DNA of 41,021 bases. It comes from Methanomicrobiales archaeon HGW-Methanomicrobiales-2 (lineage in GTDB: Archaea; Halobacteriota; Methanomicrobia; Methanomicrobiales; Methanoculleaceae). Shown piece by piece: positions 1,645 to 32,830 of the stretch. The stretch is from assembly GCA_002839645.1 (NCBI GenBank), contig PGYL01000018.1, positions 1 through 41,021 on the forward strand, given 5' to 3'. The position numbers and the translations under genes are program-made. How positions within the stretch are numbered: position 1 is the stretch's first letter; the number at the start of each line of letters is the position of its first letter. The notes below the pieces were generated by a model. It made no database searches and was not told where the DNA came from. It was given only the letters and a program-made list of their open reading frames with translations.

Positions 1645-2301
1645 TTACAGCCATCCGGCAAGTGTGACGATGCTATAGAGGATATAGAGGCCCACGGGTA
1701 TCCCGACGGTGAGAGCCGCGTCCCGCGTGGAGAGGTTCCGTGCATATTTCATGCCGAAGATCCAGATGTTCGCGCTCCAGAGCGTGAAGAGGATGCCCAC
1801 GAGCCCGGCAATCTGCGCCAGGGGGTCGGTCGCGAGAATGGTCACCAGGCTCTCGGAGAACTCCGCTATCTGCTCGGGGCTCGTCATGGGCGGGACATTC
1901 AGGCCCGAAAGGAGCTGGTAGGAGAAGTATGTCCCGATGATGCCCCCGAATACCTGGGGCAGAAGCCCGTAGCCGGTGAACTCCACCGTCCGCTTGAGGT
2001 CGCCCTGACCCTTGAAGATCATCGAGACGATGTAGAAGATGAAGCTGTAGATGATCCAGCCCAGGAGCCCGCCGACGAAGGCAACAGCGGCGGAGAAGAT
2101 TGTTATGAGCAATCCGAGACTCTGCATCTCCGCGGGAAGCATGGCCATGGTTATATTCGTAATCGGTATGACCGAGACCGCGGTGATCAGCCCGATGGCG
2201 AGCGCGATAAGCGCCGGAATCTTCAGGCTCGGCTCGTCCTGCATGCGCGCTTCAAAGAAACGCCCGGGGTTGAGCAATACCCGGATAAATCCAGTATCCA
2301 T
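1645..2301 (-). CDS. Yip1-domain integral membrane protein
   Basis: 218 residues. A short N-terminal segment (MDTGFIRVLLNPGRFFEARM) has the 'P..FFE' pattern common at the start of Yip1-family proteins. About five hydrophobic segments follow, at roughly residues 28-50, 64-85, 88-105, 120-140 and 165-215. The family is named after membrane-trafficking proteins, but in archaea its function is not known. It is the first gene of the operon with the S-layer-like protein and the ABC ATPase, so a shared role in surface protein export or envelope maintenance is likely (inference). An AT-rich AAAAAGTTTATCC stretch upstream at about 2332-2344 (read on the minus strand) is a plausible TATA element. Confidence 0.8.
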   Translation of the reverse strand: MDTGFIRVLLNPGRFFEARMQDEPSLKIPALIALAIGLITAVSVIPITNITMAMLPAEMQSLGLLITIFSAAVAFVGGLLGWIIYSFIFYIVSMIFKGQGDLKRTVEFTGYGLLPQVFGGIIGTYFSYQLLSGLNVPPMTSPEQIAEFSESLVTILATDPLAQIAGLVGILFTLWSANIWIFGMKYARNLSTRDAALTVGIPVGLYILYSIVTLAGWL

Positions 2302-2454
2302 GATATCGTATATCTGGCTGACGAGAGGGGATAAACTTTTTCAGGAACGGGATCCGGAGCAGCCGGGACTTCCGCGAAAAAAGCCATGATAATCGTGAGA
2401 AGTCCCCTTCCAGGAGGATAGACCGCCCGGATGGATCTGAGATCCCGGAGACAC

Positions 2455-3129
2455 CTAGAGGTGCCCGAGTTCTTTGAGGCTCACGTAACCCTTCTTCGTG
2501 ACGATGACATGGTCGAGCACCCGGATGCCGAGGATGGACCCCGCCTCGACGAGTTGCCGGGTGATGCTGATATCCTGGGTGGAAGGCTCCAGGGTGCCTG
2601 ATGGGTGGTTGTGGACCAGGATGACCGAAGCGGCGCGGTCGGTGATCGCCTCGGCAAAGACTTCCCGGGGGTGGACGAGGCTCTGATTTAAGATCCCGAC
2701 GGTGACGGTCCGGCGCTCGATCACTTCGCCGGCTCCGTTGAGGGTTATGCAGAAGAAATATTCCTGCTTCTTATCCCGCCATTCCGCAACAAGCGGGAGG
2801 ACGTCGGCAGGACAGGTGATCCGGTGTCCGGAGACGCCGTCGTCCCCGAGATATCGCCGCCCAAGTTCGAAGCAGGCCATGATCTCGCAGGCTTTCGCTG
2901 ACCCGACCCCATCTATCGCAAGGAGGGCGTCATACGATGGGCCGGCCCCGGCACTCCCCAGGTAGCGTTCAACATCGCTGGCGACCTGCCAGACGTCCCG
3001 CCTCTTTGTGCCCCGCCCGAGAAGGAGAGCAATCAGTTCGGCATCGGTGAGCGCCTGCGGTCCCCGTGCTGCCAGTTTCTCGCGCGGACGATCGCGGTCC
3101 GGTGTATCGCGCATCCTCTTCATGCTCAT
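2455..3129 (-). CDS. radC: RadC family JAB/MPN+ domain protein
   Basis: 224 residues, the usual length for RadC. The N-terminal part (about residues 20-95) contains a helix-hairpin-helix segment, LLAIDGVGSAKACEIMACFELGRRYL. The C-terminal JAB metalloprotease-like domain has the signature EVFAEAITDRAASVILVHNH followed by PSG and D, i.e. E plus HxH...D ligands of a zinc site. RadC proteins were once linked to DNA repair, but their biochemical role remains unsettled (family knowledge). Three Met codons lie close together at the start (3129, 3123, 3114) and no clear ribosome binding site decides between them. The gene is transcribed away from the TPR gene. Confidence 0.93.
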   Translation of the reverse strand: MSMKRMRDTPDRDRPREKLAARGPQALTDAELIALLLGRGTKRRDVWQVASDVERYLGSAGAGPSYDALLAIDGVGSAKACEIMACFELGRRYLGDDGVSGHRITCPADVLPLVAEWRDKKQEYFFCITLNGAGEVIERRTVTVGILNQSLVHPREVFAEAITDRAASVILVHNHPSGTLEPSTQDISITRQLVEAGSILGIRVLDHVIVTKKGYVSLKELGHL

Positions 3130-3322
3130 CCGGCCCGGGTGGGTTACCCTGATCGGCGTTTTTGATCCCGGAGCATGTATACGTTGTCAATCGATCCCAT
3201 GCACCGGACGGGTCTACTGTCCGAACCGGCGGGGGCGGTTCGGAGGAGTTCCCTTCTGACCGGGGAAATCCCGGGGACGGTATCGAAACCCTTTTTGCTA
3301 GAGGGTTGCCATCTCTCACAAA

Positions 3323-5017
3323 ATGGAACTCCCCTGGAAGAGCGCCGAGGCCTGGTGCAGGAAGGGACGGGCATACGCCGAGCAGGGGCAGTACGACCGG
3401 GCTGTCGAGTGCTACGACCGGGCAATCGCCCTGAATGCCAGCATCGCTGCCGTCTGGTACCACAAGGGACTCGCCCTCACGACCGCCCGAAAATACCGGG
3501 AAGCAGCCGAATGCCTCGACCAGGCCATCAGGATCGACCCAACCTGCGCCCGGCTCTGGCACGCCCGGGGGCAGGCGCTCTATGACCTCCAGGAGTACCG
3601 GGAAGCGGCCGATTACTGCGGCCAGGCGGTGAAACTCGCGCCGGAGATCGCGAACGCCTGGCTTATCCGGGGCCATGCCCTCAGGAAGATAGGGCGAACT
3701 CCTGACGCGATCGCCTGCTACGACCATGTCGTCACGATCGAACCGGGGCGCGTCGAGGCCTGGCTCGCCCGCGGAATGGCGCTTGCTGCCGATCGCCGGT
3801 ACGACGCAGCGGTCGACTGTTACGACCGGGTCATCGCTCTCGATCCCCGGAACGCAAATGCCTGGTACGCCAGAGGAACGATCCTGATCCTCCTCTCCCG
3901 CTACGAGGACGCGCTCGCCTCGTATGACCGGGCCGTTGCCATCGATCCGAACCACGCCGACACCTGGTATACCCGGGGATGCACGCTTGCAGCGCTGAAG
4001 CGTTATGACGAGGCCATCGGATGCTTCGATCGGGCGCTTGCTCTCCGCCCCGACGACGCCGAGGCCTGGTACAACCGGGGTCGGGCACTGCAGAACCTGG
4101 AACGCTACGAGGAGACACTTGTCTGCTATGACCGGGCGTTCCGGGTCAATCCCGACCACCCCGGGATCTGGTACCACAAAGCGATAGTGCTGAAGAAATT
4201 GAAGCGTTACGACCTCTCGCTTGGCTGTTTCGATCGGGCGCTCAGGGAGAACGCCGTCGATGCGGAGATCTGGCACCAGAAGGGACTTCTCTTTTTTGCC
4301 CTGAAGCGCTACGGGGAGGCGATAGAGTGTTTCGATCAGGCGCTCAGGGTCCAAACCGACCACAAGGACGCATGCTACTACCGGGGCGAGAGTTACTACG
4401 CTCTCGGGGACTGGGAGGCCGCGGTTGCCTGCTACCAGGCTGTGGTCAGGGCGGCCCCCACGAATGCCGTCGCCTGGAACAATTACGGAAACACGCTCTA
4501 TCGGCTTGAAAAATACGAAGAGGCACTTGTCTGCTACGAACGGGCGCTCGAGATCGACCCGGAGAACCGCCAGGTCTGGAACAACAAAGCAAGCGTCCTC
4601 TCAGTTCTCTCGCACTACGACAAGGCGCTCGTCTGCTACGACCAGGAACTCCGGGCCCACCCGGAGAACGCGGACGCCTGGTACAATAAGGGCCTTGCGC
4701 TCTTCATCCTCGGGCGGTACGGCGAAGCCGTAACCTGCTATTCGCACGCACTCCAGATCGATCCTGCGAGGGCCGAGATCTGGGGCACGAAGGGGAATGC
4801 TCTCGTCATCCTGGAACGTTGCGAGGAGGCTCTCGACTGCTATGACCGGGCAATCGCTCTCAACCCCGACGACGCCGACGCGCTCAACGGGAAGGCGATG
4901 GTGCTCATTTATCTCGACCGCCCCGCCGAGGCGGTCAAATACTACGAGAGGGTGCAGCGGCTGCCGGAACGGGACTGGGCTGCAAAAACGGATTCGAGTA
5001 AAAATAAGAGGGTCTAG
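3323..5017 (+). CDS. Tetratricopeptide repeat protein with 16 TPR units
   Basis: 564 residues made almost wholly of 16 tandem 34-residue TPR units, from about residue 8 to the end. Each fits W..KG..L....RYEEA..CYDRAL.IDP...A. A Cys before the final Y/F-D-R-A of most units (ECYDRA, GCFDRA, VCYERA) is unusually regular. There is no signal peptide or membrane span, so it is probably a cytoplasmic protein-binding scaffold. Partners cannot be inferred from the neighbours. The stop overlaps the stop of the convergent aminotransferase gene. No strong ribosome binding site precedes the Met; a GAGGG lies about 17 bases upstream, so the transcript could be nearly leaderless (inference). Confidence 0.93.
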   Translation: MELPWKSAEAWCRKGRAYAEQGQYDRAVECYDRAIALNASIAAVWYHKGLALTTARKYREAAECLDQAIRIDPTCARLWHARGQALYDLQEYREAADYCGQAVKLAPEIANAWLIRGHALRKIGRTPDAIACYDHVVTIEPGRVEAWLARGMALAADRRYDAAVDCYDRVIALDPRNANAWYARGTILILLSRYEDALASYDRAVAIDPNHADTWYTRGCTLAALKRYDEAIGCFDRALALRPDDAEAWYNRGRALQNLERYEETLVCYDRAFRVNPDHPGIWYHKAIVLKKLKRYDLSLGCFDRALRENAVDAEIWHQKGLLFFALKRYGEAIECFDQALRVQTDHKDACYYRGESYYALGDWEAAVACYQAVVRAAPTNAVAWNNYGNTLYRLEKYEEALVCYERALEIDPENRQVWNNKASVLSVLSHYDKALVCYDQELRAHPENADAWYNKGLALFILGRYGEAVTCYSHALQIDPARAEIWGTKGNALVILERCEEALDCYDRAIALNPDDADALNGKAMVLIYLDRPAEAVKYYERVQRLPERDWAAKTDSSKNKRV

Positions 5018-8330: not shown

Positions 8331-8723
8331 ATGGCAGACGTCACGGTTATCTGCGGTTCCGCCTCGGACGGCACCGTCGCGGAGAAAGTTTTTGAAACCT
8401 TAAAGGAGCATGGCGTGTCCTACGACTACAAGGTGATATCGGCGCACCGTGACCCTGACAAACTCGACGAGTACGTGAAGGCAAGCACTGCCCGGGTCTT
8501 CATCGCGATCGCCGGACTCTCGGCAGCCCTCCCGGGCGTGATTGCCTCCAGGACCGAGCGGCCGGTGATCGGTGTCCCGGTGAGCGGAACGCTGATGGGT
8601 CTCGACGCCCTCCTCTCGATCGTCCAGATGCCCAGAGGGGTGCCGGTGGCCTGCGTCGGGGTGGACAACGGCGTGAACGCCGCCCTGCTTGCGATCCGGA
8701 TCCTCGGCGCGCACAGCGCCTGA
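8331..8723 (+). CDS. purE: 5-(carboxyamino)imidazole ribonucleotide mutase / AIR carboxylase family protein
   Basis: About 130 residues starting [20 protein letters not shown]. PurE acts at the carboxylation step of purine synthesis. Signature parts are GSASD, the SAHRDP segment with the catalytic His, and [13 protein letters not shown]; the conserved VGVDNG...AALLA ends the protein. The AALPG form (no His in this loop) is seen in many archaeal members (family knowledge), so whether it uses N5-CAIR or CO2 with AIR cannot be read directly. A TTG start four codons earlier, at 8319, is possible and has a better-spaced AGGCGGGG; the ATG is preferred because it matches the family N terminus. The T-run just after the stop may end transcription. 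Confidence 0.9.
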
Positions 8724-8728
8724 CATAG

Positions 8729-8734
8729 TTTTTT
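8729..8734 (+). terminator. T-run after purE
   Basis: TTTTTT begins six bases after the purE stop. The ArsC-like gene has its own strong ribosome binding site 20 bases later, so readthrough is also possible. Confidence 0.3.
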
Positions 8735-8760
8735 CACGACCCGGCCGGGAAGGGAGGGGT

Positions 8761-9165
8761 ATGAAGCAGAGAGTGCTCTTCATCGGCACAAACAACGCTG
8801 CCCGGACCCAGATAGCGGAGGGCTACCTCCGCGCTCGCTACGGCGGCCGCTACGAGGCCTGCTCCGCCGGGATAGCCCCCACCGCCCTCGATCCCCTCGC
8901 CACAAGAGTGATGGGCGAGATCGGGATCAGTATCTCGGAACAACGGGCGAAGGATCTCACCCTCTTCGATGGAACCGAGATGGACTACGTGGTCGCGCTC
9001 TGTGCAGGTGGCATCTGCCCGATGTTTCCCTGGACAAAGGAGACGCTCCACGTCGACTTCCCGGACCCGGGCCGGGCCACCGGAACCCCCGACAAGGTCC
9101 TCGCCGCCTACCGGCGGAGCCGGGACGCGATAGCCGCCTGGATCGATGGAAAATTCGGAAAATAA
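8761..9165 (+). CDS. ArsC / low-molecular-weight phosphatase-like protein lacking the nucleophilic cysteine
   Basis: 134 residues of the low-molecular-weight phosphatase fold, clearly paralogous to the arsC at 32375 (shared [15 protein letters not shown] and FPDP..ATGT blocks). In the catalytic loop the normal C-T-x-N-A-A-R-S reads G-T-N-N-A-A-R-T: the Cys codon TGC is GGC here, so the essential nucleophile is missing. The second Cys region, ALCAGGICPMFPW, keeps two cysteines but is two residues shorter than in a thioredoxin-coupled arsenate reductase. It cannot act as a normal reductase or phosphatase by the known mechanism; it may bind oxyanions or be a decaying copy (inference). GGGAGGGG precedes the Met. 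The start upstream at 8689 is rejected because it runs into purE. Confidence 0.85.
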   Translation: MKQRVLFIGTNNAARTQIAEGYLRARYGGRYEACSAGIAPTALDPLATRVMGEIGISISEQRAKDLTLFDGTEMDYVVALCAGGICPMFPWTKETLHVDFPDPGRATGTPDKVLAAYRRSRDAIAAWIDGKFGK

Positions 9166-9188
9166 GAGGGATATTCAGCGGAACCCTT

Positions 9189-10469
9189 TCACGGCTCCAT
9201 CCGCTCCTGCGGTGCTTTGAGGATATCCCGCACCATCTTTACGGCGCAGAGGTCGCCGCACATCGAGCAGGTCTCGATCTCCCCGTCCCGCTCATGGATG
9301 CGCCGTGCCTCTTCCGGGACGAGTGCCGCCTCGAACTGCTTCTCCCAGTCGAGCGCCCGGCGTGCCTCCGCCATCCGTATCTCGCGGTTCTTCGTTTTCG
9401 CGGCGGTGCGGGAGAGGCTCCCGACGTGCGCCGCAATCCTCGCCACCCGCGTCCCCTCCACGATGTCGTCGAGGTCCGGTAGTGCCAGGTGTTCGCTCGG
9501 CGAGACCATGCAGAGGAAGTCGGCGCCGTGCATGCAGGCGATCACGCCGCCGATCGCCCCCACCACATGGTCGTAGCCCGGCGCCACATCGGTCACGAGC
9601 GGTCCGAGCAGGTAGAGCGGGGCGCCGTCGGTCAGTTCCTTGAGCATCCGCACGTTGTAGCCGATCTGGTCGGCCGGGATATGCCCCGGCCCCTCGATCA
9701 TACGCTGCACCCCGGCGGCGAGTGCCTTCTTCGCCAGGTGCCCGAGCGTCAGGTACTCGGTCGTCTTCGCGAGGCGGCCGGCGTCCACGAGCGCACCCGG
9801 GCGCATCCCGTCGCCGAGGCTCACGACCACATCGTGCTCGGCGAGGATCTCGAGCAGGTAGTCGTACTCGGCATAGAGCGGGTTCTCTTCGCCGGTCGCG
9901 GCCATCATCGCCACGTGGAAGGCCCCGCCCCGGGAAACGACGCCCATCGTCCGTGGGTCGGCCTGGAGCGACGCGAGGGCGTCGCGGTTCACACCGCAGT
10001 GCAGGGTCAGGAAGTCCACGCCCTGCCGGCAGTGCTCCCGGATCACCTTAAAGAGCAGGTCGGCGTCGACGTCCGCGGCAGCCCCCGCCCGCCGGACCGC
10101 CTCGTAGATAGGGACCGTCCCGACGGGCGCGTCGAGAGCGAGGATTCGGCGCCGGATGCGGGGGAGGTCGCCTCCGGTCGAGAGGTCCATCAGCGCGTCC
10201 GCCCCCTCGCGGAGGGCCGCTTTCGCCTTCTCGATCTCGAGGTCCTCGTCACACCGGGTGCCCGACGTGCCGATGTTCACGTTGACCCGGACCCTGCAGC
10301 CCTCCCCGATGGCGCAGAGCCGGTGTGACCGTACGGGGTTCGCTGGAATGACAATCCGCCCACGGGTGATGGCCCGCGCGGCGTGGTGCCCGACGAGGTC
10401 CTCCTCCCGGGCAATCGTCTCCACCTCCGGGGGGACCCCGCGCAGGCACGCAGAGATCAGGGTATGCAT
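9189..10469 (-). CDS. thiC: Phosphomethylpyrimidine synthase
   Basis: ThiC rearranges aminoimidazole ribotide to the hydroxymethylpyrimidine phosphate of thiamine, using a radical SAM mechanism. This is the short archaeal form, 426 residues from MHTLISACLRGVPPEV. Motifs include GRIVIPANPVRSH, VNVNIGTSG, MDLSTGGDLP, TLHCGVNRDAL and MIEGPGHIPADQIGYNV. The C-terminal cluster-binding region is CSMCGDLCAVK, i.e. cysteines spaced 2 and 3, as in archaeal members. Further in-frame Met codons at 10478 and 10493 could also be starts, but this one matches family N termini. The divergent MBL gene begins 34 bases away, leaving almost no room for two separate promoters. Confidence 0.95.
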   Translation of the reverse strand: MHTLISACLRGVPPEVETIAREEDLVGHHAARAITRGRIVIPANPVRSHRLCAIGEGCRVRVNVNIGTSGTRCDEDLEIEKAKAALREGADALMDLSTGGDLPRIRRRILALDAPVGTVPIYEAVRRAGAAADVDADLLFKVIREHCRQGVDFLTLHCGVNRDALASLQADPRTMGVVSRGGAFHVAMMAATGEENPLYAEYDYLLEILAEHDVVVSLGDGMRPGALVDAGRLAKTTEYLTLGHLAKKALAAGVQRMIEGPGHIPADQIGYNVRMLKELTDGAPLYLLGPLVTDVAPGYDHVVGAIGGVIACMHGADFLCMVSPSEHLALPDLDDIVEGTRVARIAAHVGSLSRTAAKTKNREIRMAEARRALDWEKQFEAALVPEEARRIHERDGEIETCSMCGDLCAVKMVRDILKAPQERMEP

Positions 10470-10503
10470 AAGAACCATTTGCCCGGAAGCCATATTAGTC
10501 TGC

Positions 10504-11106
10504 ATGCCAGTCCGGTGGATCGCGAGCGGCACGACCTACGCCAATTCGTTCGTTTACGGAAACATCCTTGTCGACGCGGGCGTTCCCCCGATGGCGGTGG
10601 AGCCGTATGCGGGGGCGATCGAGACGATCGTCATCACCCATGCCCACTACGATCACATCGCTCATCTCCGGGAGATCGCCCGGATATGCGGCGACCCGAC
10701 CGTCTGCATCCATGAGGCGGACGCGCCCGGCCTCGTCGACGACACCCGGAGCCTCGCCATGCACTTTGGGGCCCGGTCGCCCGGGATCGTCCCCGACACC
10801 ATCCTTCACGACGGTGACCGGATCGGGAGCCTCCGCGTGATCCACACCCCCGGGCACACGCCGGGCGGGATCTGCCTCTATGACGAGGCGGCAAAGGTGC
10901 TCTTCTCGGGAGATACAGTCTTTACCGGCGGATCCTTCGGACGGTACGACTTTCCGGGCGGCGACCGGACAGCACTTGGTGCGTCCATAGAGCGCCTTAG
11001 CACGCTCGAAGTCGTTGGCCTCTACCCCGGGCACGGCGAGCCCGCCCTCCGTGACGGGGGGAGGCATATCGCAGCCGCGCGGGAGGCCCTCCGGTTTTAT
11101 GGATAA
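10504..11106 (+). CDS. Metallo-beta-lactamase fold hydrolase (glyoxalase II-like)
   Basis: 200 residues from MPVRWIASGTTYANSFVYG. The metal-binding signature THAHYDHI (HxHxDH) is near residue 44. HTPGHTPGGICLYD supplies the third His, SGDTVFTGGSFGRYDFPGGD supplies the bridging Asp, and YPGHGEP the last His, so the dinuclear metal site is complete. Substrate is unknown; glyoxalase II-like thioester hydrolysis is the nearest general activity (family knowledge). The DUF123 gene starts inside its last codons (8-base overlap), so the two are probably co-translated. There is no ribosome binding site before the Met, and thiC starts just upstream on the other strand; a leaderless mRNA is plausible. 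Confidence 0.88.
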   Translation: MPVRWIASGTTYANSFVYGNILVDAGVPPMAVEPYAGAIETIVITHAHYDHIAHLREIARICGDPTVCIHEADAPGLVDDTRSLAMHFGARSPGIVPDTILHDGDRIGSLRVIHTPGHTPGGICLYDEAAKVLFSGDTVFTGGSFGRYDFPGGDRTALGASIERLSTLEVVGLYPGHGEPALRDGGRHIAAAREALRFYG

Positions 11107-17479: not shown

Positions 17480-19504
<2,025 letters not shown>

Positions 19505-19509
19505 TCCCC

Positions 19510-19515
19510 TTTTTT
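19510..19515 (+). terminator. T-run after hppA
   Basis: Six T's follow C's directly after the hppA stop, fitting the T-rich type of archaeal terminator. corA has its own upstream region. Confidence 0.35.
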
Positions 19516-19606
19516 CGAGCCCGATTTCCTGACGGGCGTCCATACCTTCATCCCGCCCGCCGACAACAGTAGAGTGTGAACTCCCGGAGCGGAGGTGACA
19601 GACCAT

Positions 19607-20548
19607 ATGTTCCGCATTTATCGCACGGTTGAAGCGGCCCCGGTGCCACGGACAGAGGAGACCGGAACGTTCGAGCCCGGTGCATGGGTCTCGATGATCA
19701 ACCCCACCGCGGGCGAGATACAGGAGATCTCCGGGAGACTCTCCATTCCGGGGGACTACCTCCGGGCAGCGCTCGATGAGGAGGAGCGCCCGCGGACCGA
19801 GACCGAAGACGGCGTAACCCTGATCGTCATCGATATCCCGGTGCCCTACCCGGAGCAGACAATCCTCTACACGACGATGCCGCTCGGGATCATCGTTACG
19901 CCCGATACCATCGTCACCGTCTGCCTCCGCGAGAACGCGATCATCCAGGACTTTGCGAACGGCCGGGTGAAGCTCTTCTACACCTTCAAAAAGACCCGGT
20001 TCGTGCTGCAGATCCTCTTTCGGAACGCATCCTACTTCCTCCAGTACCTGCGCCAGATCGAGCGATTATCCGACAGGATCGGAGCCGAACTGAACCAGTC
20101 GATGCGGAACCGCGAACTGATCCAGCTGATGAACTTAAAAAAGAGCCTGGTCTACTTCTCGACGTCGCTCCGGAGCAACCAGATTGTCCTCGACAAGACT
20201 CTGACGTTCCAGCCGCTCCGGATGTACGAGGACGACACCGATCTTCTTGAGGACGTCATCATCGAGAACAAGCAGGCGATCGAGATGGCGAGCACCTACT
20301 CGACGATCCTCACCGAGACGATGGATGCCTTCGCCTCGATCATATCGAACAACTTCAACAATATCTTAAAACTCCTCACCTCGATAACCATCATCCTCGC
20401 GATTCCCACGATGATCGCGAGTTTCCTCGGTATGAACGTCCCGGTCCCTCTCCAGGATAACCCGTACGGGTTCCTCATCATCCTTGTCCTCTCGCTGATC
20501 GTCTCCTCCCTCCTCGCGATGGCCATCAACCGGAAAGGGTGGCTGTGA
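19607..20548 (+). CDS. corA: CorA family divalent cation transporter
   Basis: 313 residues. A long soluble N-terminal part with predicted helices (about residues 120-250) leads to two C-terminal membrane spans. The first ends in the family signature GMN (ASFLGMNVPVPL) and the second is YGFLIILVLSLIVSSLLAMA, with a short basic tail NRKGWL. CorA proteins form pentameric channels for Mg2+ or related ions. A GTG four codons upstream is part of the ribosome binding site GGAGGTG, which sits nine bases before the ATG, so the ATG was chosen. The loop after GMN lacks the usual MPE, as in several archaeal members. Confidence 0.93.
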   Translation: MFRIYRTVEAAPVPRTEETGTFEPGAWVSMINPTAGEIQEISGRLSIPGDYLRAALDEEERPRTETEDGVTLIVIDIPVPYPEQTILYTTMPLGIIVTPDTIVTVCLRENAIIQDFANGRVKLFYTFKKTRFVLQILFRNASYFLQYLRQIERLSDRIGAELNQSMRNRELIQLMNLKKSLVYFSTSLRSNQIVLDKTLTFQPLRMYEDDTDLLEDVIIENKQAIEMASTYSTILTETMDAFASIISNNFNNILKLLTSITIILAIPTMIASFLGMNVPVPLQDNPYGFLIILVLSLIVSSLLAMAINRKGWL

Positions 20549-26960: not shown

Positions 26961-27323
26961 TCAGGGCTGCTGCCCGTCCCGGATCGCCCCAATCACCGCC
27001 CCGACAAGCCGCTCGATCTCGTCAAACCGCGGCTCCGCCATGCCGTTCTTCACGATCCCGCACCCGGTCGCGACGACGTGCAGGTCCGGCTCGACCCCGA
27101 TCTCCCGGAGTTTTTTGAGCGCACAGGTGTCTTCGCAGCCGTCCAGCGCGAGAACGCGCCCTGCAGAGCGTGCTGCCTCCTCGAGCGAGGCTGCTGGCCG
27201 GCTCGCCGGGAGTGAGGCCTCCATGGAGTCCGGGTACCGCTGCAGGAGCACCATTCCCACCCGGGCGGTCAGCTTCCCGGTATTCGAGAGGCCCGAGCAG
27301 GTGACGAGGGTAACGGGCTCCAT
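26961..27323 (-). CDS. Putative zinc-binding DGC-motif protein
   Basis: 120 residues from MEPVTLVTCSGLSNTGKLTA. The family signature DGCEDTCALKKL is in the middle (about residue 61), with further cysteines in TCSG at the start and VATGCGIVKN near the end. All fit the DGC family, whose cysteines are thought to bind zinc; its function is unknown. It lies eight bases after the DUF2703 gene on the same strand. In methanogens, DGC and DUF2703 genes are often found beside arsenic-resistance or related redox genes (recollection, not checked), as is the case here. Confidence 0.8.
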   Translation of the reverse strand: MEPVTLVTCSGLSNTGKLTARVGMVLLQRYPDSMEASLPASRPAASLEEAARSAGRVLALDGCEDTCALKKLREIGVEPDLHVVATGCGIVKNGMAEPRFDEIERLVGAVIGAIRDGQQP

Positions 27324-27330
27324 CACGGCC

Positions 27331-27735
27331 TCACTCCATCTCAAGCGCTTTTGCGGCCGCCCGCCCGATCAGTTCCGGGGGGATTGCCTCGTACTCCTCG
27401 CCGTTATAGCGGAGCGTCCGGCACTCCGCCTCCTCCTCCCCACAGGTTTCACAGGTGTCGCATCCTGCGCAGGAGCAGGCTGTGGCGGTCACCTCGACCC
27501 CCTCGAGAAGTTCCTCGATCGGCACCCCGTTGAAGAGGAGGCTCCCCGATCCCGCGGGGGCATCATCGGGGAGGACGGTCTCGACCACCCGAACGCTTAC
27601 CCCCTCCATCTCGAGGAGCATCCGGATCTCCGCGAGAACGGCCGAAAGCGTCATTCCGGTCTCCTCAAACTCTTCTGCGGTCTTCTCGATCTCGTTTCCG
27701 ATGTGCTTCCATTCGATGACGAGTTCCTTCTTCAT
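27331..27735 (-). CDS. Cys-rich DUF2703 family protein
   Basis: 134 residues from MKKELVIEWKHIGNEIEKT. The first 75 residues look like an alpha/beta domain (EETGMTLSAVLAEIRMLLE, VRVVETVL); SLLFNGVPIEELLEG then leads into a cysteine cluster C-S-C-AG-C-DT-C-ET-C and another Cys in ECRTLRYNG. This fits DUF2703, a family without known function. The cluster could hold As(III), Sb(III), Zn or an iron-sulfur cluster (inference). The acr3 fragment ends 11 bases upstream in the same direction, so this gene was probably once part of an acr3-DUF2703-DGC operon. Confidence 0.8.
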   Translation of the reverse strand: MKKELVIEWKHIGNEIEKTAEEFEETGMTLSAVLAEIRMLLEMEGVSVRVVETVLPDDAPAGSGSLLFNGVPIEELLEGVEVTATACSCAGCDTCETCGEEEAECRTLRYNGEEYEAIPPELIGRAAAKALEME

Positions 27736-27745
27736 GGTATCATCT

Positions 27746-27913
27746 CTACTGGGTGTTGACGGGACATCTTCCTGTCGCCTCCCCACCATACCACCGGTCT
27801 CGGTGCCGGAGCGCCACATTCACAAGCGATATCAGCATCGGCACCTCAAGGAGCGAGCCGATGGCCGTGGCGAACGCCACACCGGAGCCGATCCCGAAGG
27901 CTCCTATGGTAAC
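27746..27913 (-). pseudogene. 3' remnant of an ACR3 arsenite exporter gene
   Basis: Minus-strand translation from 27913 gives VTIGAFGIGSGVAFATAIGS, then [20 protein letters not shown] and WYGGEATGRCPVNTQ before a stop at 27746. It aligns closely with the last 55 residues of the intact ACR3 at 31293-32378 ([38 protein letters not shown]...C.V). The rest of the gene is missing: a TAG lies directly upstream and the DNA before it encodes something else. It is therefore a truncated relic, not a short gene. It shows that an older, separate acr3 copy stood in front of DUF2703. Confidence 0.82.
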
Positions 27914-28005
27914 CTACCTCACGCGAGCAATCCCGGTCACCAGGAGCAGCGAGAAGGCTATCACCAGCAGGGCTTTTCGTTCGGATATGGTGCAGGCGCC
28001 GCCCG
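27914..28005 (-). pseudogene. Unassigned hydrophobic coding fragment joined to the acr3 remnant
   Basis: Reading the minus strand into the TAG at 27914-27916 gives TISERKALLVIAFSLLLVTG then IARVR. It looks like the N-terminal membrane span of a protein, but there is no ATG, no continuation, and it does not match the corresponding part of ACR3. It may be the start of a deleted gene fused to the acr3 tail by the same deletion. The family is not recognised. It directly abuts the arsR promoter. Confidence 0.3.
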
Positions 28006-28006
28006 C

Positions 28007-28029
28007 TAATATTTATATATTCGAATATA
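28007..28029 (+). promoter_or_regulatory. arsR promoter with 14-bp operator palindrome
   Basis: A TATA-like stretch TAATATTTATATAT leads into the perfect palindrome TATATTCGAATATA at 28016-28029, which ends 13 bases before the arsR ATG. ArsR-family repressors bind AT-rich inverted repeats that overlap their own promoter (family knowledge), so this is the probable arsenite-responsive operator for the whole operon. The palindrome is visible; binding is inferred. Confidence 0.65.
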
Positions 28030-28042
28030 GCAATATAACGAT

Positions 28043-28348
28043 ATGCAAGGGAAGATAAAGCTGCTGAAATCTCTCGCCGACGAGACACGAGTAAAAATCG
28101 TCCAATGCCTGATGGACGGCGAGCGATGTGCGTGTACCCTCGTGCCGGCCGTTGGAAAGGCACAACCGACGGTCTCGCAACACCTCAGGATCCTGGAAGA
28201 GGCCGGGGTCCTGGAGTCGCGGAGGGACGGCGTAAACATCTGGTACAGGATCCGATCGGATCAGGCGGTTCAGATCCTGAAGATCCTCGACATTCAGAGT
28301 ATTGAAATACCCATTTTTTGTAGCGGGGGTGACCATGACGAACGATAG
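28043..28348 (+). CDS. arsR: ArsR family metalloid-responsive repressor
   Basis: 101 residues, winged helix-turn-helix. LKSLADETRVKIVQCLMDGE is the usual opening, and AQPTVSQHLRILEEAGVLES the DNA-recognition helix region, followed by the wing RRDGVNIWYRI. The inducer site is probably the C-A-C pair in ERCACTLVPA, matching the ELCVCDL position of classic arsenite sensors, plus Cys in PIFCSGG near the C terminus. It likely represses its own operon through the palindrome just upstream. A small ORF overlaps its 3' end and leads into the P-type ATPase gene. Confidence 0.93.
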   Translation: MQGKIKLLKSLADETRVKIVQCLMDGERCACTLVPAVGKAQPTVSQHLRILEEAGVLESRRDGVNIWYRIRSDQAVQILKILDIQSIEIPIFCSGGDHDER

Positions 28349-28415
28349 CGTGATAGCATTCAAAGGAGCGATCTGCTCCTGGGGGTTTGCCCGCCGGGAG
28401 ATGGGAGCGAAATGA
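28335..28415 (+). CDS. Possible 26-residue small ORF bridging arsR and the ATPase gene
   Basis: The ATG overlaps the arsR end, and a good ribosome binding site (GGGGGTGA) stands about two bases before it. The product MTNDSVIAFKGAICSWGFAR then REMGAK has one Cys. Its stop TGA overlaps the ATG of the ATPase gene. No family is recognised. It may only couple translation of arsR to the ATPase. The ATPase also has its own GGGAG four bases before its ATG. Confidence 0.35.
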   Translation: MTNDSVIAFKGAICSWGFARREMGAK

Positions 28416-31153
28416 GCACTCCTTCATCAACACCTGATACCGATACGGTCACCCTGCAGATCCAGGGGATGGACTGCACCTGCAACGCCGACCTCCTCGC
28501 CCGAAAACTGGATGCCCTCGCCGGCGTCCGGGGCCACGAGATCACGCCGGTCACCGGCCAGGCCCGGATCAGCTATGATCCCGCGATCGTCAGTGTCCAG
28601 GAGATCATCCGCACCGTCGCTGAGACGGGGATGACCGCCTCGCAGGTGCGGAGCGAGGGGCGGAAGAGCACCTGGTGGCGTGAGCCACAGCAACTCGCCC
28701 TCTACGGGAGCTTCCTCACCGCAGTGATCGCCTTCGTCGCGGGATACTTCGGGACGTCGCTCACCATCGTGAACGGGCTCTACCTGCTCGCCGTGCTCAT
28801 CGGCGTCTACTACCCGGCACGAAAGGCGCTGATCGCGCTCAAGAACCTGACGCCGACGATCCACCTGCTCATGCTGATCGGCTCGGTCGGCGCGATGGCG
28901 CTCGGCCTCTGGGGGGAGGCCGCGGTCCTGATCATCGTCTACTCGCTCGGCGACGTCCTCGAGTCCTACGCCGTGGATAAAGCCCGGGGTGCGATCCGGT
29001 CGCTCATGGCGCTCGTGCCGAAGGAAGCGCTGGTCCGGCGCAACGGCCGCGAGACCATCTGTGCGGTCGAGACGATCGGCGTCGGCGAAGTCGTGATCGT
29101 CCGACCGGGCGAGCGGGTGCCGGTCGACGGCACGGTCATCGCGGGGTCGTCGTATGTCGACCAGGCAGCGGTCACGGGAGAACCGGTTCCCGTCCACCGC
29201 GGCCCCGGCGAGGACGTCTTCGCCGGGACGATCAACCAGAACGGGTCACTCGAGGTCCGGGTCACGAAACCGGCGTCCGAGACGATGCTCTCCCGGATCA
29301 TCCTCTCGGTCGAGGAGGCGCAGGCGAAACGGACGTCGTATCAGCGGTTCTCGGACTCCTTCGGGAAGTGGTACACGCCGGCCATGTTCGTCCTCGGCGT
29401 GCTGGTCGCCACCGTGCCGCCGCTCTTCTTCGGTGCCGAGTGGTACCCGTTCATCTACCGCGGGCTCGTTGTCTTCGTGGTCTCGTGCTCCTGCGGCCTT
29501 GCGCTCTCCGTGCCCGTCGCGGTGGTGGGCGCAATGGCGAACGCTGCGAAGCAGGGGACGGTCTTCAAGGGCGGCGCCTACCTTGAGACCATCGACACGG
29601 TGAAGGCGATCGCGTTCGACAAGACGGGGACCCTGACCATCGGACGGCCCGCGGTCACGGATGTCGTGACCTTTGACGATCTCGCCGGGGATGAACTGCT
29701 CGACCTCGCCGGCTGCATCGAGTCGCGGTCGGGCCACCCCCTCGCGGCCGCGATCGTCCGGAAGGCTCGCGAGAGCGGGACGTTCTCGGGTCGGTCGGCC
29801 GTTCAGTTCGAGGAGACGGCCGGGCGCGGGGTCGCGGCGACGGTGGATGGCCGGGCATGCCGCATCGGCAGTTCCCGCGCCATGCTCGAACAGGGTATCG
29901 ACATCGGTCACGCGGAGGAGACGATCGCCCGGATCGAGGGTGAAGGCCGGACCGTGGTCCTCGTGAGCCGCGACGGGACGCTCGCCGGCCTGATCGCGAT
30001 CGCCGATGAGGTGCGGCCCGGCGCTGTCGAGGCCTTGCAGCGGTTAAGACGCGCCGGTGTCCGGACCGTGATGCTGACCGGGGACAACGAACGGAGTGCC
30101 CGGGCCATCGCACAGCGTGTCGGTGTGGATGAATACCGGGCGCAGCTCCTGCCGACGGATAAGGTCGACGCGGTGCGGCAGTTGAAAGAGCAGTACGGCG
30201 CGGTGGCCATGGTCGGCGACGGCATCAACGACGCACCGGCCATGGCCGCCGCGGACGTCGGCATCGCGATGGGCGCGGCAGGCACGGACATCGCGATCGA
30301 GGCCGGCGACGTGGTGCTGATGTCCGACGACCTCGGGAAACTCGCGTATGTGCGCGAACTCTCGCACCGGACGGTCACCGTGATCCGGCAGAACATCGCC
30401 GTCTCGCTGATCAACGTCGCGTTCATGGTCGTCGCGGCCCTGCTCGGCTACCTCGGGCTGGTCACGGGCCTGCTCCTGAACGAGGGAAGTGCGGTCTTCG
30501 TGATCTTGAATGCCCTGCGTCTGCTGACGTGGCGGAGCGGCGCCGAACCTGAGATCCCCGTTGCTGCCCGGATAAAGGCTCCCGCCACTCCGACTGCAGC
30601 GCAGACGACGGCGGCTGTTGGCTGCTGTTCCTGTACCGCGCCTGCGGCCGGTGCGCTACCCGTTCCTTCAACGGGGGGAGCCGGTGGCTGCTCGTGTGGA
30701 GAACCGCAGATCTCCGGGGCGACAGGCGCGTGCTGCTCCGGCGCGGAGGACGTCGGTGCGGCATCGACGGCGACAGCCCCCGCAGGGGCCGGATGTTCCT
30801 GCGGTGATAAGCAACGGGATATGCCGACCCCGATCCTCGTCGAGACGGAGGGGGGCTGTTGTTGCGGAGAGCCCGCCGGCGAGGTGCTGCTTCCAGCCCC
30901 CCTCCCCGGCAACGGTTCCGGATCGTCCGGTCCTGCGACCGCAACGTTCCGACTCGAAGGGCCCGGTTGCGCCTGTGAGGGACAGATGGTCGAGAAACGG
31001 GTGAAGGTCCTGAAGGGGGTGACCGCTTTCACCCTGAATGCGATCACGAACCAGCTGAAGGTCACCTACGACCCGGCCGCTGTCTCGGTCGACGATATCG
31101 TGATGGCGGTAAAGAAGGCGGGCGTAACCGCGGTCCCTGTAGACCGGCGCTGA
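28412..31153 (+). CDS. P1B-type heavy-metal/metalloid ATPase with CxC motifs and Cys-rich tail
   Basis: 913 residues. Order: N-terminal HMA domain (about 8-75) whose metal loop is GMDCTCNAD (CxC, not CxxC); membrane spans; actuator TGEPVP; membrane motif VVSCSCGLALSVPV, where CSC replaces the usual CPC; phosphorylation site DKTGTLT; SGHPLA; GDGINDAPAMA; last two spans; then a tail of about 130 residues with CC-S-C, CSC, CC, CSC and CCC groups; finally a second HMA-like domain with GPGCACEGQ (CxC). In the last spans, the Lys and Asp that ZntA uses for zinc are Val and Asn (LLLNEGSA). So it is not a standard Cu+ or Zn/Cd pump. Its place between arsR and acr3 suggests As(III), Sb(III) or another soft metal (inference). 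Confidence 0.93.
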   Translation: MSTPSSTPDTDTVTLQIQGMDCTCNADLLARKLDALAGVRGHEITPVTGQARISYDPAIVSVQEIIRTVAETGMTASQVRSEGRKSTWWREPQQLALYGSFLTAVIAFVAGYFGTSLTIVNGLYLLAVLIGVYYPARKALIALKNLTPTIHLLMLIGSVGAMALGLWGEAAVLIIVYSLGDVLESYAVDKARGAIRSLMALVPKEALVRRNGRETICAVETIGVGEVVIVRPGERVPVDGTVIAGSSYVDQAAVTGEPVPVHRGPGEDVFAGTINQNGSLEVRVTKPASETMLSRIILSVEEAQAKRTSYQRFSDSFGKWYTPAMFVLGVLVATVPPLFFGAEWYPFIYRGLVVFVVSCSCGLALSVPVAVVGAMANAAKQGTVFKGGAYLETIDTVKAIAFDKTGTLTIGRPAVTDVVTFDDLAGDELLDLAGCIESRSGHPLAAAIVRKARESGTFSGRSAVQFEETAGRGVAATVDGRACRIGSSRAMLEQGIDIGHAEETIARIEGEGRTVVLVSRDGTLAGLIAIADEVRPGAVEALQRLRRAGVRTVMLTGDNERSARAIAQRVGVDEYRAQLLPTDKVDAVRQLKEQYGAVAMVGDGINDAPAMAAADVGIAMGAAGTDIAIEAGDVVLMSDDLGKLAYVRELSHRTVTVIRQNIAVSLINVAFMVVAALLGYLGLVTGLLLNEGSAVFVILNALRLLTWRSGAEPEIPVAARIKAPATPTAAQTTAAVGCCSCTAPAAGALPVPSTGGAGGCSCGEPQISGATGACCSGAEDVGAASTATAPAGAGCSCGDKQRDMPTPILVETEGGCCCGEPAGEVLLPAPLPGNGSGSSGPATATFRLEGPGCACEGQMVEKRVKVLKGVTAFTLNAITNQLKVTYDPAAVSVDDIVMAVKKAGVTAVPVDRR

Positions 31154-31188: not shown

Positions 31189-31308
31189 ATGCAACAAAAG
31201 ACGATGATTATGCCGGTCGATGGCCAAACCCGGGGAGCGAACAACGCCGGTCCCGGGGGCCGACACACCCCCGGACACCACGGAGAACAACCATGGCTGA
31301 AACTATGA
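31189..31308 (+). CDS. Possible 39-residue His/Gly-rich small protein in the ars operon
   Basis: The ATG has a strong ribosome binding site, GAGGTGA, four bases upstream. The product starts [20 protein letters not shown], continues with [16 protein letters not shown] and ends LKL. Three His lie close together. The stop lies 16 bases inside acr3 in another frame, so translation could be coupled. It is not a recognised family and could be only a leader peptide. Its position between the ATPase and acr3 would also suit a metal-binding helper (inference). Confidence 0.4.
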
Positions 31309-32378
31309 AACGGCTCTCGTTCCTCGATCGCTACCTGACCCTCTGGATCTTCCTCGCGATGGCGATCGGGATCGGGATCGGCTACTTTGTCCCCTCGGTC
31401 CCGCAGGCGATCACCGGCTTTGCGGTCGGCACGACCTCGATCCCGATTGCGATCGGCCTGATCGTGATGATGTACCCGCCGCTCGCGAAGGTCCGGTATG
31501 AGGAACTCGGCAGCGTCTTCCGCGACCGGAAGGTGCTGGGCGTATCGCTCTTCCAGAACTGGCTTGTCGGCCCGGTCCTGATGTTCGCCCTCGCGGTCCT
31601 CTTCCTCGCCGACCGGCCGGAGTTGATGTACGGCCTGATCCTGGTGGGCCTCGCCCGGTGCATCGCGATGGTGATCGTCTGGAACGACCTCGCCGGCGGG
31701 AGCTGCGACTACTGTGCCGCGGTGGTGGGCTTAAACTCCGTCTTCCAGGTCTTCTTCTACTCGATCTACGCGTACATCTTCATCACGGTTCTGCCGCCGC
31801 TCCTCGGGATCGGGACCGGCACCGCGATCAGCATCTCGATCGCCGAGATCGCGACCTCGGTCTTCATCTACCTCGGCATCCCGTTCATCGCCGGGTTTCT
31901 GACCCGCTTTATCCTGCTTCGGGTACGATCGAAGGAGTGGTATGAGACCCGGTTCATCCCGCGGATCTCGCCCCTGACCCTCGTCGCCCTGCTCTTCACG
32001 ATCATCGTGATGTTCTCGACCCAGGGGGCGAACATCATCCAGGTCCCGTTCGACGTCGTCCGGGTCGCGATCCCGCTCCTGATCTACTTCCTCGTGATGT
32101 TCTTCGTCTCGTTCTGGATGAGCCACCGGCTCAACGTCGACTACCCGCGTTCGGCGACCCTGGCTTTCACAGCAGCGTCGAACAACTTCGAACTCGCCAT
32201 CGCCGTCGCTGTTGCGGTCTTCGGCATCGGCTCCCAGGTCGCGTTCGCGACCGTGATCGGCCCCCTCGTCGAGGTGCCGGTCCTGATATCGCTCGTCAAT
32301 GTTGCGATCTGGCTCAAGAAGCGGTGGTACGCGAATGAGCCGGCCGCGCAGTGCGCCGTCGATCAGGGAGTCGTATGA
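31293..32378 (+). CDS. acr3: Arsenite efflux permease, ACR3 family
   Basis: 361 residues with about ten membrane spans. [20 protein letters not shown] and [15 protein letters not shown] form the family N terminus. The essential Cys region is [20 protein letters not shown], and [20 protein letters not shown] is the conserved ending region. ACR3 exports As(OH)3 or arsenite, driven by the membrane potential or proton gradient. GGAGA precedes the ATG. The stop overlaps the arsC start (ATGA), so exporter and reductase are co-translated. A truncated second copy of this gene type lies at 27746-27913. Confidence 0.95.
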
Positions 32379-32830
32379 AACGCGTCCTCTTCATCTGTAC
32401 GCACAACGCGGCCCGCTCACAGATGGCCGAGGGGTATCTGCGGGCGCGGTACGGCGGCCGGTATGAGGCATTCAGCGCCGGCACGGTCGCGACGGAGGTC
32501 CATCCGCTCGCCGTCCGTGTGATGGCCGAGCTCGGGATCGAGATCTCCGGGCAGCGGTCCAGGGATCTTGGCAGATTCATCAGCGAGGAGATGGACGTCG
32601 TGGTCACGGTATGTGACGCGGCAAAGACCGCCTGCCCGATCTTCCCGGGGGCAAAATCAACGGTCCACGCAAATTTCCCCGACCCTTCCGCCGCGACCGG
32701 GACCGAGGAGGAACGGCTGGCCGTCTTCCGGGTGGTGCGGGACGATATCGCGGCCTGGATCGATGCCGCCTTCGGGGATGCGGACCACGAGCAGCAATCC
32801 CCCGGGGGCCTATACCCTGAGGTTTTCTAA
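32375..32830 (+). CDS. arsC: Arsenate reductase, thioredoxin-coupled type
   Basis: 151 residues. The nucleophile loop is [15 protein letters not shown] (Cys, then Arg five residues later plus Ser), and the redox Cys pair lies in [16 protein letters not shown], spaced as in the Staphylococcus thioredoxin-linked enzyme (VTLC...CPILP). It reduces arsenate to arsenite for export by ACR3. It starts within the acr3 stop codon. Its last 21 bases overlap the 3' end of pdxT on the other strand. The paralogue at 8761-9165 lacks the first Cys. Confidence 0.94.

Follow-up and report, generated by a model that had tools for sequence, protein, structure and literature searches.

Arsenite export is known mainly from the carriers ArsB and Acr3 and from ArsA. 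In the ArsA-ArsD system, arsenite extrusion is powered by ATP and assisted by a chaperone of thioredoxin fold. The P1B-ATPase TtArsX of Thermus thermophilus, a CPC-type P1B-2 pump under an ArsR/SmtB repressor, is required for arsenic resistance (PMC5658604, PMC5960188). Its disruption cuts the arsenate/arsenite MIC 13-15 fold (PMC5658604), and it also serves cadmium (PMC5658604, PMC5960188, PMC8649762). The genes of the TtArsX system are scattered, and no CxC-HMA or Cys tail is described for TtArsX, which keeps the CPC, QN(X)7K and DXG(X)7N motifs listed for P1B-2 (PMC5960188) together with a CxxC domain. Seven P1B subgroups have been proposed; up to 2016 no biochemical work had addressed P1B-6 and P1B-7 (PMC4932525), and the substrate of P1B-7 is listed as unknown (PMC7558416).

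The window, meaning the whole stretch of 41,021 nucleotides analysed here, contains a P1B-ATPase gene embedded in an ars locus (Table 1). The pump gene lies between arsR and acr3 in close-set frames, as the initial annotation described, with gaps of 63 nt and 139 nt on its two sides, and acr3 overlaps arsC. A DGC-DUF2703 gene pair on the minus strand runs divergently from these four plus-strand genes. The DGC gene adjoins DUF2703 in several relatives. DUF2703 is a thioredoxin-like domain from the same clan as ArsD and has been found fused with it (PMC3091736), and a DUF2703 gene sits in an arsenate-induced ars cluster (PMC6514093). Three further Methanoculleus genomes (four with the window) preserve most of the palindrome preceding arsR, despite flanking DNA that differs from that of the window. 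An Rfam scan found no RNA between the operon genes, and no terminator-like site was found in the pump-acr3 gap.

Two further elements are observed in this region. Between the DUF2703 gene and arsR lies a decayed C-terminal piece of a second acr3 (about 27755-28000, minus strand), with 62% identity and an in-frame stop. Because an intact acr3 overlaps DUF2703 at another locus (L066), the window probably once had an older acr3-DUF2703 unit that has since been lost. A 26-codon frame (28335-28415, plus strand) starts inside the end of arsR, and its TGA overlaps the pump ATG (ATGA); translational coupling and a gene remnant are both possible explanations.

Table 1 Features of the ars locus and of the CSC-type pump in the window.
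Feature	Position	Strand	Basis or remark
DGC-domain protein, 14 nt overlap with the DUF2703 gene	26961..27344	-	Domain match
DUF2703 gene, divergent from arsR; product of thioredoxin-like fold	27331..27819	-	PF10865, 5e-23
Imperfect palindrome ATATTTATATATTC/GAATATAGCAATAT directly before arsR	28009..28036	+	Overlaps archaeal TATA-like box; candidate operator
arsR, ArsR/SmtB metalloregulator with ERCAC box	28043..28348	+	Domain/profile match
CSC-type P1B-ATPase, 913 aa	28412..31153	+	Pfam E1-E2_ATPase, Hydrolase (HAD) and two HMA domains
N-terminal HMA with CTC (C22, C24; nt 28475-28483)	28442..28648	+	Pfam; modelled fold, residues 11-79
Membrane motif C359-S360-C361 (in SCSC), replacing CPC	29486..29494	+	Alignment; predicted helix break
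Val669, ZntA-type Lys position of QN(X)7K	30416..30418	+	Alignment
Asn690 in NEG(X)7N; Asp in P1B-2, His in P1B-4	30479..30481	+	Alignment
Cys-rich tail, 12 Cys, residues 713-838	30548..30925	+	Disorder predicted
C-terminal HMA with CAC (C853, C855; nt 30968-30976); counterpart of separate archaeal CxC-HMA genes	30935..31138	+	Pfam; model
acr3, arsenite efflux transporter	31293..32378	+	449 bits to NCBIfam TIGR00832, above its cut-off
arsC (overlaps acr3 at its start); LMWPc fold, family of thioredoxin-type arsenate reductases	32375..32830	+	NCBIfam score below equivalog cut-off

The pump is translated from one stop-free frame and shows all general P1B features, namely DKTGT, TGE, HP, GDGxNDxP, HMA domains and a CPx-type site in the sixth span. 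Its top NCBIfam match is the generic heavy-metal P1B profile TIGR01525. The catalytic motifs (TGE at 255-257, D403-KTGT, H442-P443 and GDGxNDAP) are invariant in an alignment with 24 relatives. Translation and alignment recover every Cys motif reported initially (CTC, membrane CSC, tail clusters and CAC), and alignments likewise bear out Val and Asn at the Lys and Asp positions of ZntA. The tail clusters are CCSC (738-741), CSC (760-762), CC (774-775), CSC (795-797) and CCC (816-818). Against 10,000 shuffles of the 131-residue tail, the CxC and CC pairs (four each) are in modest excess (p about 0.01 each), and CxxC shows no enrichment. A search for a conserved third membrane Cys, which could complete a three-thiol As(III) site, found none.

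In an AlphaFold model of the pump (mean pLDDT 76.8), both HMA folds are present, at residues 11-79 and 842-909. A helix is interrupted at 358-360, and the tail is disordered over 713-838. The nearest solved relatives are ZntA and CopA/ATP7B; the best sequence match with a solved structure is ZntA 4umv, and the top structural match is 4umw.

With the P1B-2 ATPases (ZntA/CadA; Zn2+, Cd2+, Pb2+), the window pump shares the fold, the catalytic motifs and the N-terminal HMA. It differs from them in having CSC at 359-361 instead of CPC and QN(X)7V plus NEG(X)7N instead of QN(X)7K plus DXG(X)7N. The TtArsX pump also retains this CPC/Lys/Asp set, which the window pump does not share, and the TtArsX ATPase is reportedly stimulated by Zn/Cd and Cu. 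The CPC plus MxxSS-type last helix of P1B-1 (Cu/Ag) is absent as well, the CopA row reading MALSS where the pump has NEGSA. The NEG of the last helix resembles in layout the HEG of P1B-4, but the SPC and the His of that group are lacking and the pump falls in a separate clade. In comparison with ArsA-ArsD, the window ATPase is a P-type pump rather than ArsA, and DUF2703, although it belongs to the thioredoxin-like clan of ArsD, is not ArsD. Since the built-in Lys and Asp are lost, the sequence suggests a substrate other than Zn2+/Cd2+ and a different trigger for dephosphorylation.

A maximum-likelihood tree was computed with the motif columns removed beforehand. The CSC pumps form one clade (support 99/95), the archaeal part of which reaches 100/100, and this clade branches outside the sampled CPC, SPC and APC groups. 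The window pump accordingly lies inside neither the CPC Cu+ clade nor the Zn/Cd clades with ZntA and CadA, either of which would have spoken against the initial reading. CSC is found in 22 of 22 sampled rows, and each of the 21 rows whose TM8 can be read has Asn-Glu (the other row is cut off by its contig end); the TM7 Lys occurs in no row with a readable TM7. Identity is at least 59% inside the archaeal CSC clade and reaches at most about 45% with the compared CPC pumps. Because of the shared CSC/Asn-Glu signature and the single clade, the window pump is, judged from its sequence, a member of a distinct P1B lineage and not a mutated ZntA. The CSC clade may coincide with P1B-6 or P1B-7.

Pumps 73-96% identical to that of the window occur in nine genomes of its class, its own included, and all nine carry CSC, the CTC N-terminal HMA, a Cys-bearing tail and a CxC C-terminal HMA. 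In a tenth genome (G222), the C-terminal end of such a pump is visible at a contig edge. A scan of a wider collection added a Methanomassiliicoccus, one unclassified euryarchaeote and one Bathyarchaeote. In whole-genome searches, a CSC pump is present in 7 of 257 Bathyarchaeia genomes (the starting genome counted); samples of 293 genomes from the Methanomassiliicoccus phylum and of 295 genomes from the window's own phylum each contained one genome with such a pump. Plasmid searches located bacterial CSC pumps in Vibrio campbellii (two), Planococcus, Enterococcus faecalis, E. faecium and Dietzia. This patchy spread is consistent with horizontal transfer.

Several further candidates were discarded. 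A search for the DNA pattern of CSCGLA in 393 genomes of the phylum returned chance matches only, Methanoculleus excepted. Selenocysteine was considered for an in-frame TGA in the 43%-identical pumps of G061 and G077; the TGA of G061 is the ordinary stop codon that ends a CPC pump, and G077 has a pump of this type too. A match in Candidatus Shapirobacteria (L074; DCTR01000019.1, about 10000-10900) is a chimeric contig, in which a Methanoculleus CSC-pump segment interrupts the CPC pump of the contig itself and the junction contains ambiguous bases.

The gene neighbourhood was surveyed by tblastn within 9 kb of 19 archaeal CSC loci and of 11 control loci carrying other P1B pumps of the same or related archaea. 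An ArsR-type gene accompanies all 19 CSC loci and 4 of the 11 controls. Genes for acr3, arsC, arsP or DUF2703 lie near 14 of the 19 CSC pumps and 2 of the 11 controls (Fisher p 0.007, a guide only, as the loci are related by descent, hence not independent, and some lie on short contigs), and the remaining five CSC loci have ArsR-type neighbours alone. In two genomes (L023, L024), DUF2703 is fused to the N-terminus of the pump. A nearby ArsR with a box of the C-D/M-x-CPC type is common to the pumps of Bathyarchaeia and Methanomassiliicoccales and to one Methanomicrobiales pump (L062). The expected tie of relatives to ars genes thus holds among archaea. In the stretches read around bacterial CSC pumps, no acr3 or arsC was found, and the neighbours are ArsR-family regulators with HMA or redox/ABC/SMR multidrug genes. 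CSC alone is therefore no proof of an arsenic role; conversely, since the CPC pump TtArsX is tied to arsenic resistance, such a role does not need CSC.

The Cys modules differ in how widely they are kept. The pumps of Methanomassiliicoccales and Bathyarchaeia have a Cys-free N-terminal HMA and no Cys-rich tail, so the initial view that every metal-binding element is CxC describes the window pump correctly but not its family. In five distant archaeal loci (L075, L077, L149, L150, L151), a small stand-alone HMA gene carrying CSC or CGC is located next to the pump or near it. These proteins are 46-52% identical to the C-terminal domain of the window pump with CxCE invariant in the alignment, and this recurrence beside the pump marks the C-terminal CxC-HMA as a real partner. 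A profile of this domain, run with an E-value limit of 1e-14 on 231 genomes from the class, matches exactly the 10 genomes with CSC pumps; weaker second matches are the N-terminal HMA domains of the same pumps. By these comparisons, the conserved pair is the membrane CSC and the CxC-HMA, fused or separate, with the CTC domain and the tail only in Methanomicrobiales. The suggested tail-to-membrane relay through CxC sites is therefore supported in part only: the membrane CSC and the C-terminal CxC are widely kept, the tail and CTC domain are not.

A separate CxC-HMA gene (L169, G545:C10, at 11592, minus strand; 72% match) is located near acr3, arsC and a CPC pump in a Bathyarchaeote that has its CSC pump on another contig. 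This arrangement suggests that the CxC-HMA itself tracks ars genes.

The reading we favour, at about even odds, is that the window pump is the ATP-driven exporter of an arsenic-resistance island and expels As(III)/Sb(III) bound to thiols. A trivalent metalloid is the leading guess because the pump lies outside the CPC Cu+ and Zn/Cd clades and its archaeal relatives are ars-linked; the bacterial relatives, found apart from acr3 and arsC in the stretches read, limit how far this original proposal can be carried. More tentatively, we suggest that the CSC/Asn-Glu pumps form a distinct P1B subclass whose archaeal branch would be a dedicated ATP-driven As/Sb(III) exporter with built-in chaperone modules, namely the CxC-HMA and the Cys-rich tail, joined in some species by an ArsD-like DUF2703 domain fused to the pump.

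In such a mechanism, arsenic would enter the cell or ArsC would yield As(III), and As(III) (or Sb(III)) would become thiol-bound. It would be held by the CxC-HMA, by the Cys-rich tail and by DUF2703, an ArsD-like protein of thioredoxin fold, and handed on from these to C359/C361; phosphorylation of D403 would drive its release outside. ArsR would derepress the operon of pump and acr3, and the pump, beside the secondary carrier Acr3, would serve the thiol-bound pool as a primary transporter of high affinity. Against As(III)/Sb(III) export, Acr3 of the same operon already exports arsenite, five archaeal loci and the bacterial relatives have the sparser neighbourhoods noted above, and only two membrane Cys are conserved, although As(III) prefers three thiols. 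To our knowledge, the P1B pumps of known substrate move metal cations, not metalloids.

Alternatively, the pump may export soft metals (Cu(I)/Ag(I), Cd(II), Pb(II), Hg(II) or Bi(III)) and have been recruited to composite metal-resistance islands, with the ars neighbours co-selected and not functional partners. We hold this to be possible though doubtful. ArsR-family regulators sense many metals, and the ars-free surroundings of the bacterial pumps would be natural for such an exporter. Co-selection has to account for the DUF2703-pump fusion and for the repeated acr3/arsP/arsC link in several archaeal groups; such neighbours are uncommon at other P1B pumps (CPC etc.) from these or related genomes (2 of 11), and the window pump also lacks the Lys and Asp typical of Zn/Cd pumps. 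Also in favour of a soft-metal exporter is TtArsX, a P1B-2 pump that handles both Cd and As (PMC5960188).

Permeases of the ArsP type lie near the pump in five islands without detected acr3 (L063, L064, L065, L147, G222), and there are anaerobic methanogens among the hosts. Both would suit a pump that exports methyl-As(III) or thioarsenite, an organic or sulfur-bound arsenical, and shares its work with ArsP, not Acr3. We judge this unlikely, given that the window operon has acr3 and arsC with no ArsP nearby and that ArsP is assigned by resemblance only. It is very improbable that the protein is mainly a metal-storage or sensing ATPase, a poorly active pump with tail and HMAs as a sink: the predicted disorder of the Cys-rich tail fits this, yet the catalytic motifs are all intact and invariant, and relatives without the tail retain the catalytic core and the CSC.

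If As(III)/Sb(III) export holds true, the known means of arsenite export would be joined by a new one, a P-type pump made for metalloids. What appears new is a CSC/Asn-Glu clade spanning both domains together with its archaeal arsenic-island tie, its CxC-HMA partner and the DUF2703 fusion. The clade is a natural test of P1B substrate choice, with Pro to Ser, Asp to Asn and the loss of Lys occurring together and fixed across archaea and bacteria. The little-studied, ars-linked families DUF2703 and CxC-HMA gain a concrete partner, and CSC pumps on Enterococcus and Vibrio plasmids are flagged.

The Vibrio campbellii plasmid pIFL1_1 (L152) carries its CSC pumps at 8642-10747 (plus strand) and 18340-20439 (minus strand), with genes for ArsR-like proteins and DsbA-like thioredoxins, and with Tn3/IS91 elements and arr nearby. 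On the plasmids of Enterococcus faecalis and E. faecium (L155, 6292-8241; L158, 6349-8292), an ArsR-family gene comes after the CSC pump; this locus is unannotated in the E. faecium record. In Planococcus, a DUF4346 protein with repeated CGC clusters (plasmid L153, 7350-8729) adjoins the CSC pump and recalls the Cys-rich tail of the methanogen pump; the paper found on this strain, ANT_H30, gives no metal phenotype. A further P1B group (L107, L109, L110, L113, L114 and L156, from Chloroflexi and a Manganitrophus plasmid), which has APC as its membrane motif and a last helix with HE, forms its own clade in the tree. In the same genome as the window, a CPC P1B pump (G000:C36, about 1648-4905; L013, L014) is split over two frames, representing either a pseudogene or a sequencing error.
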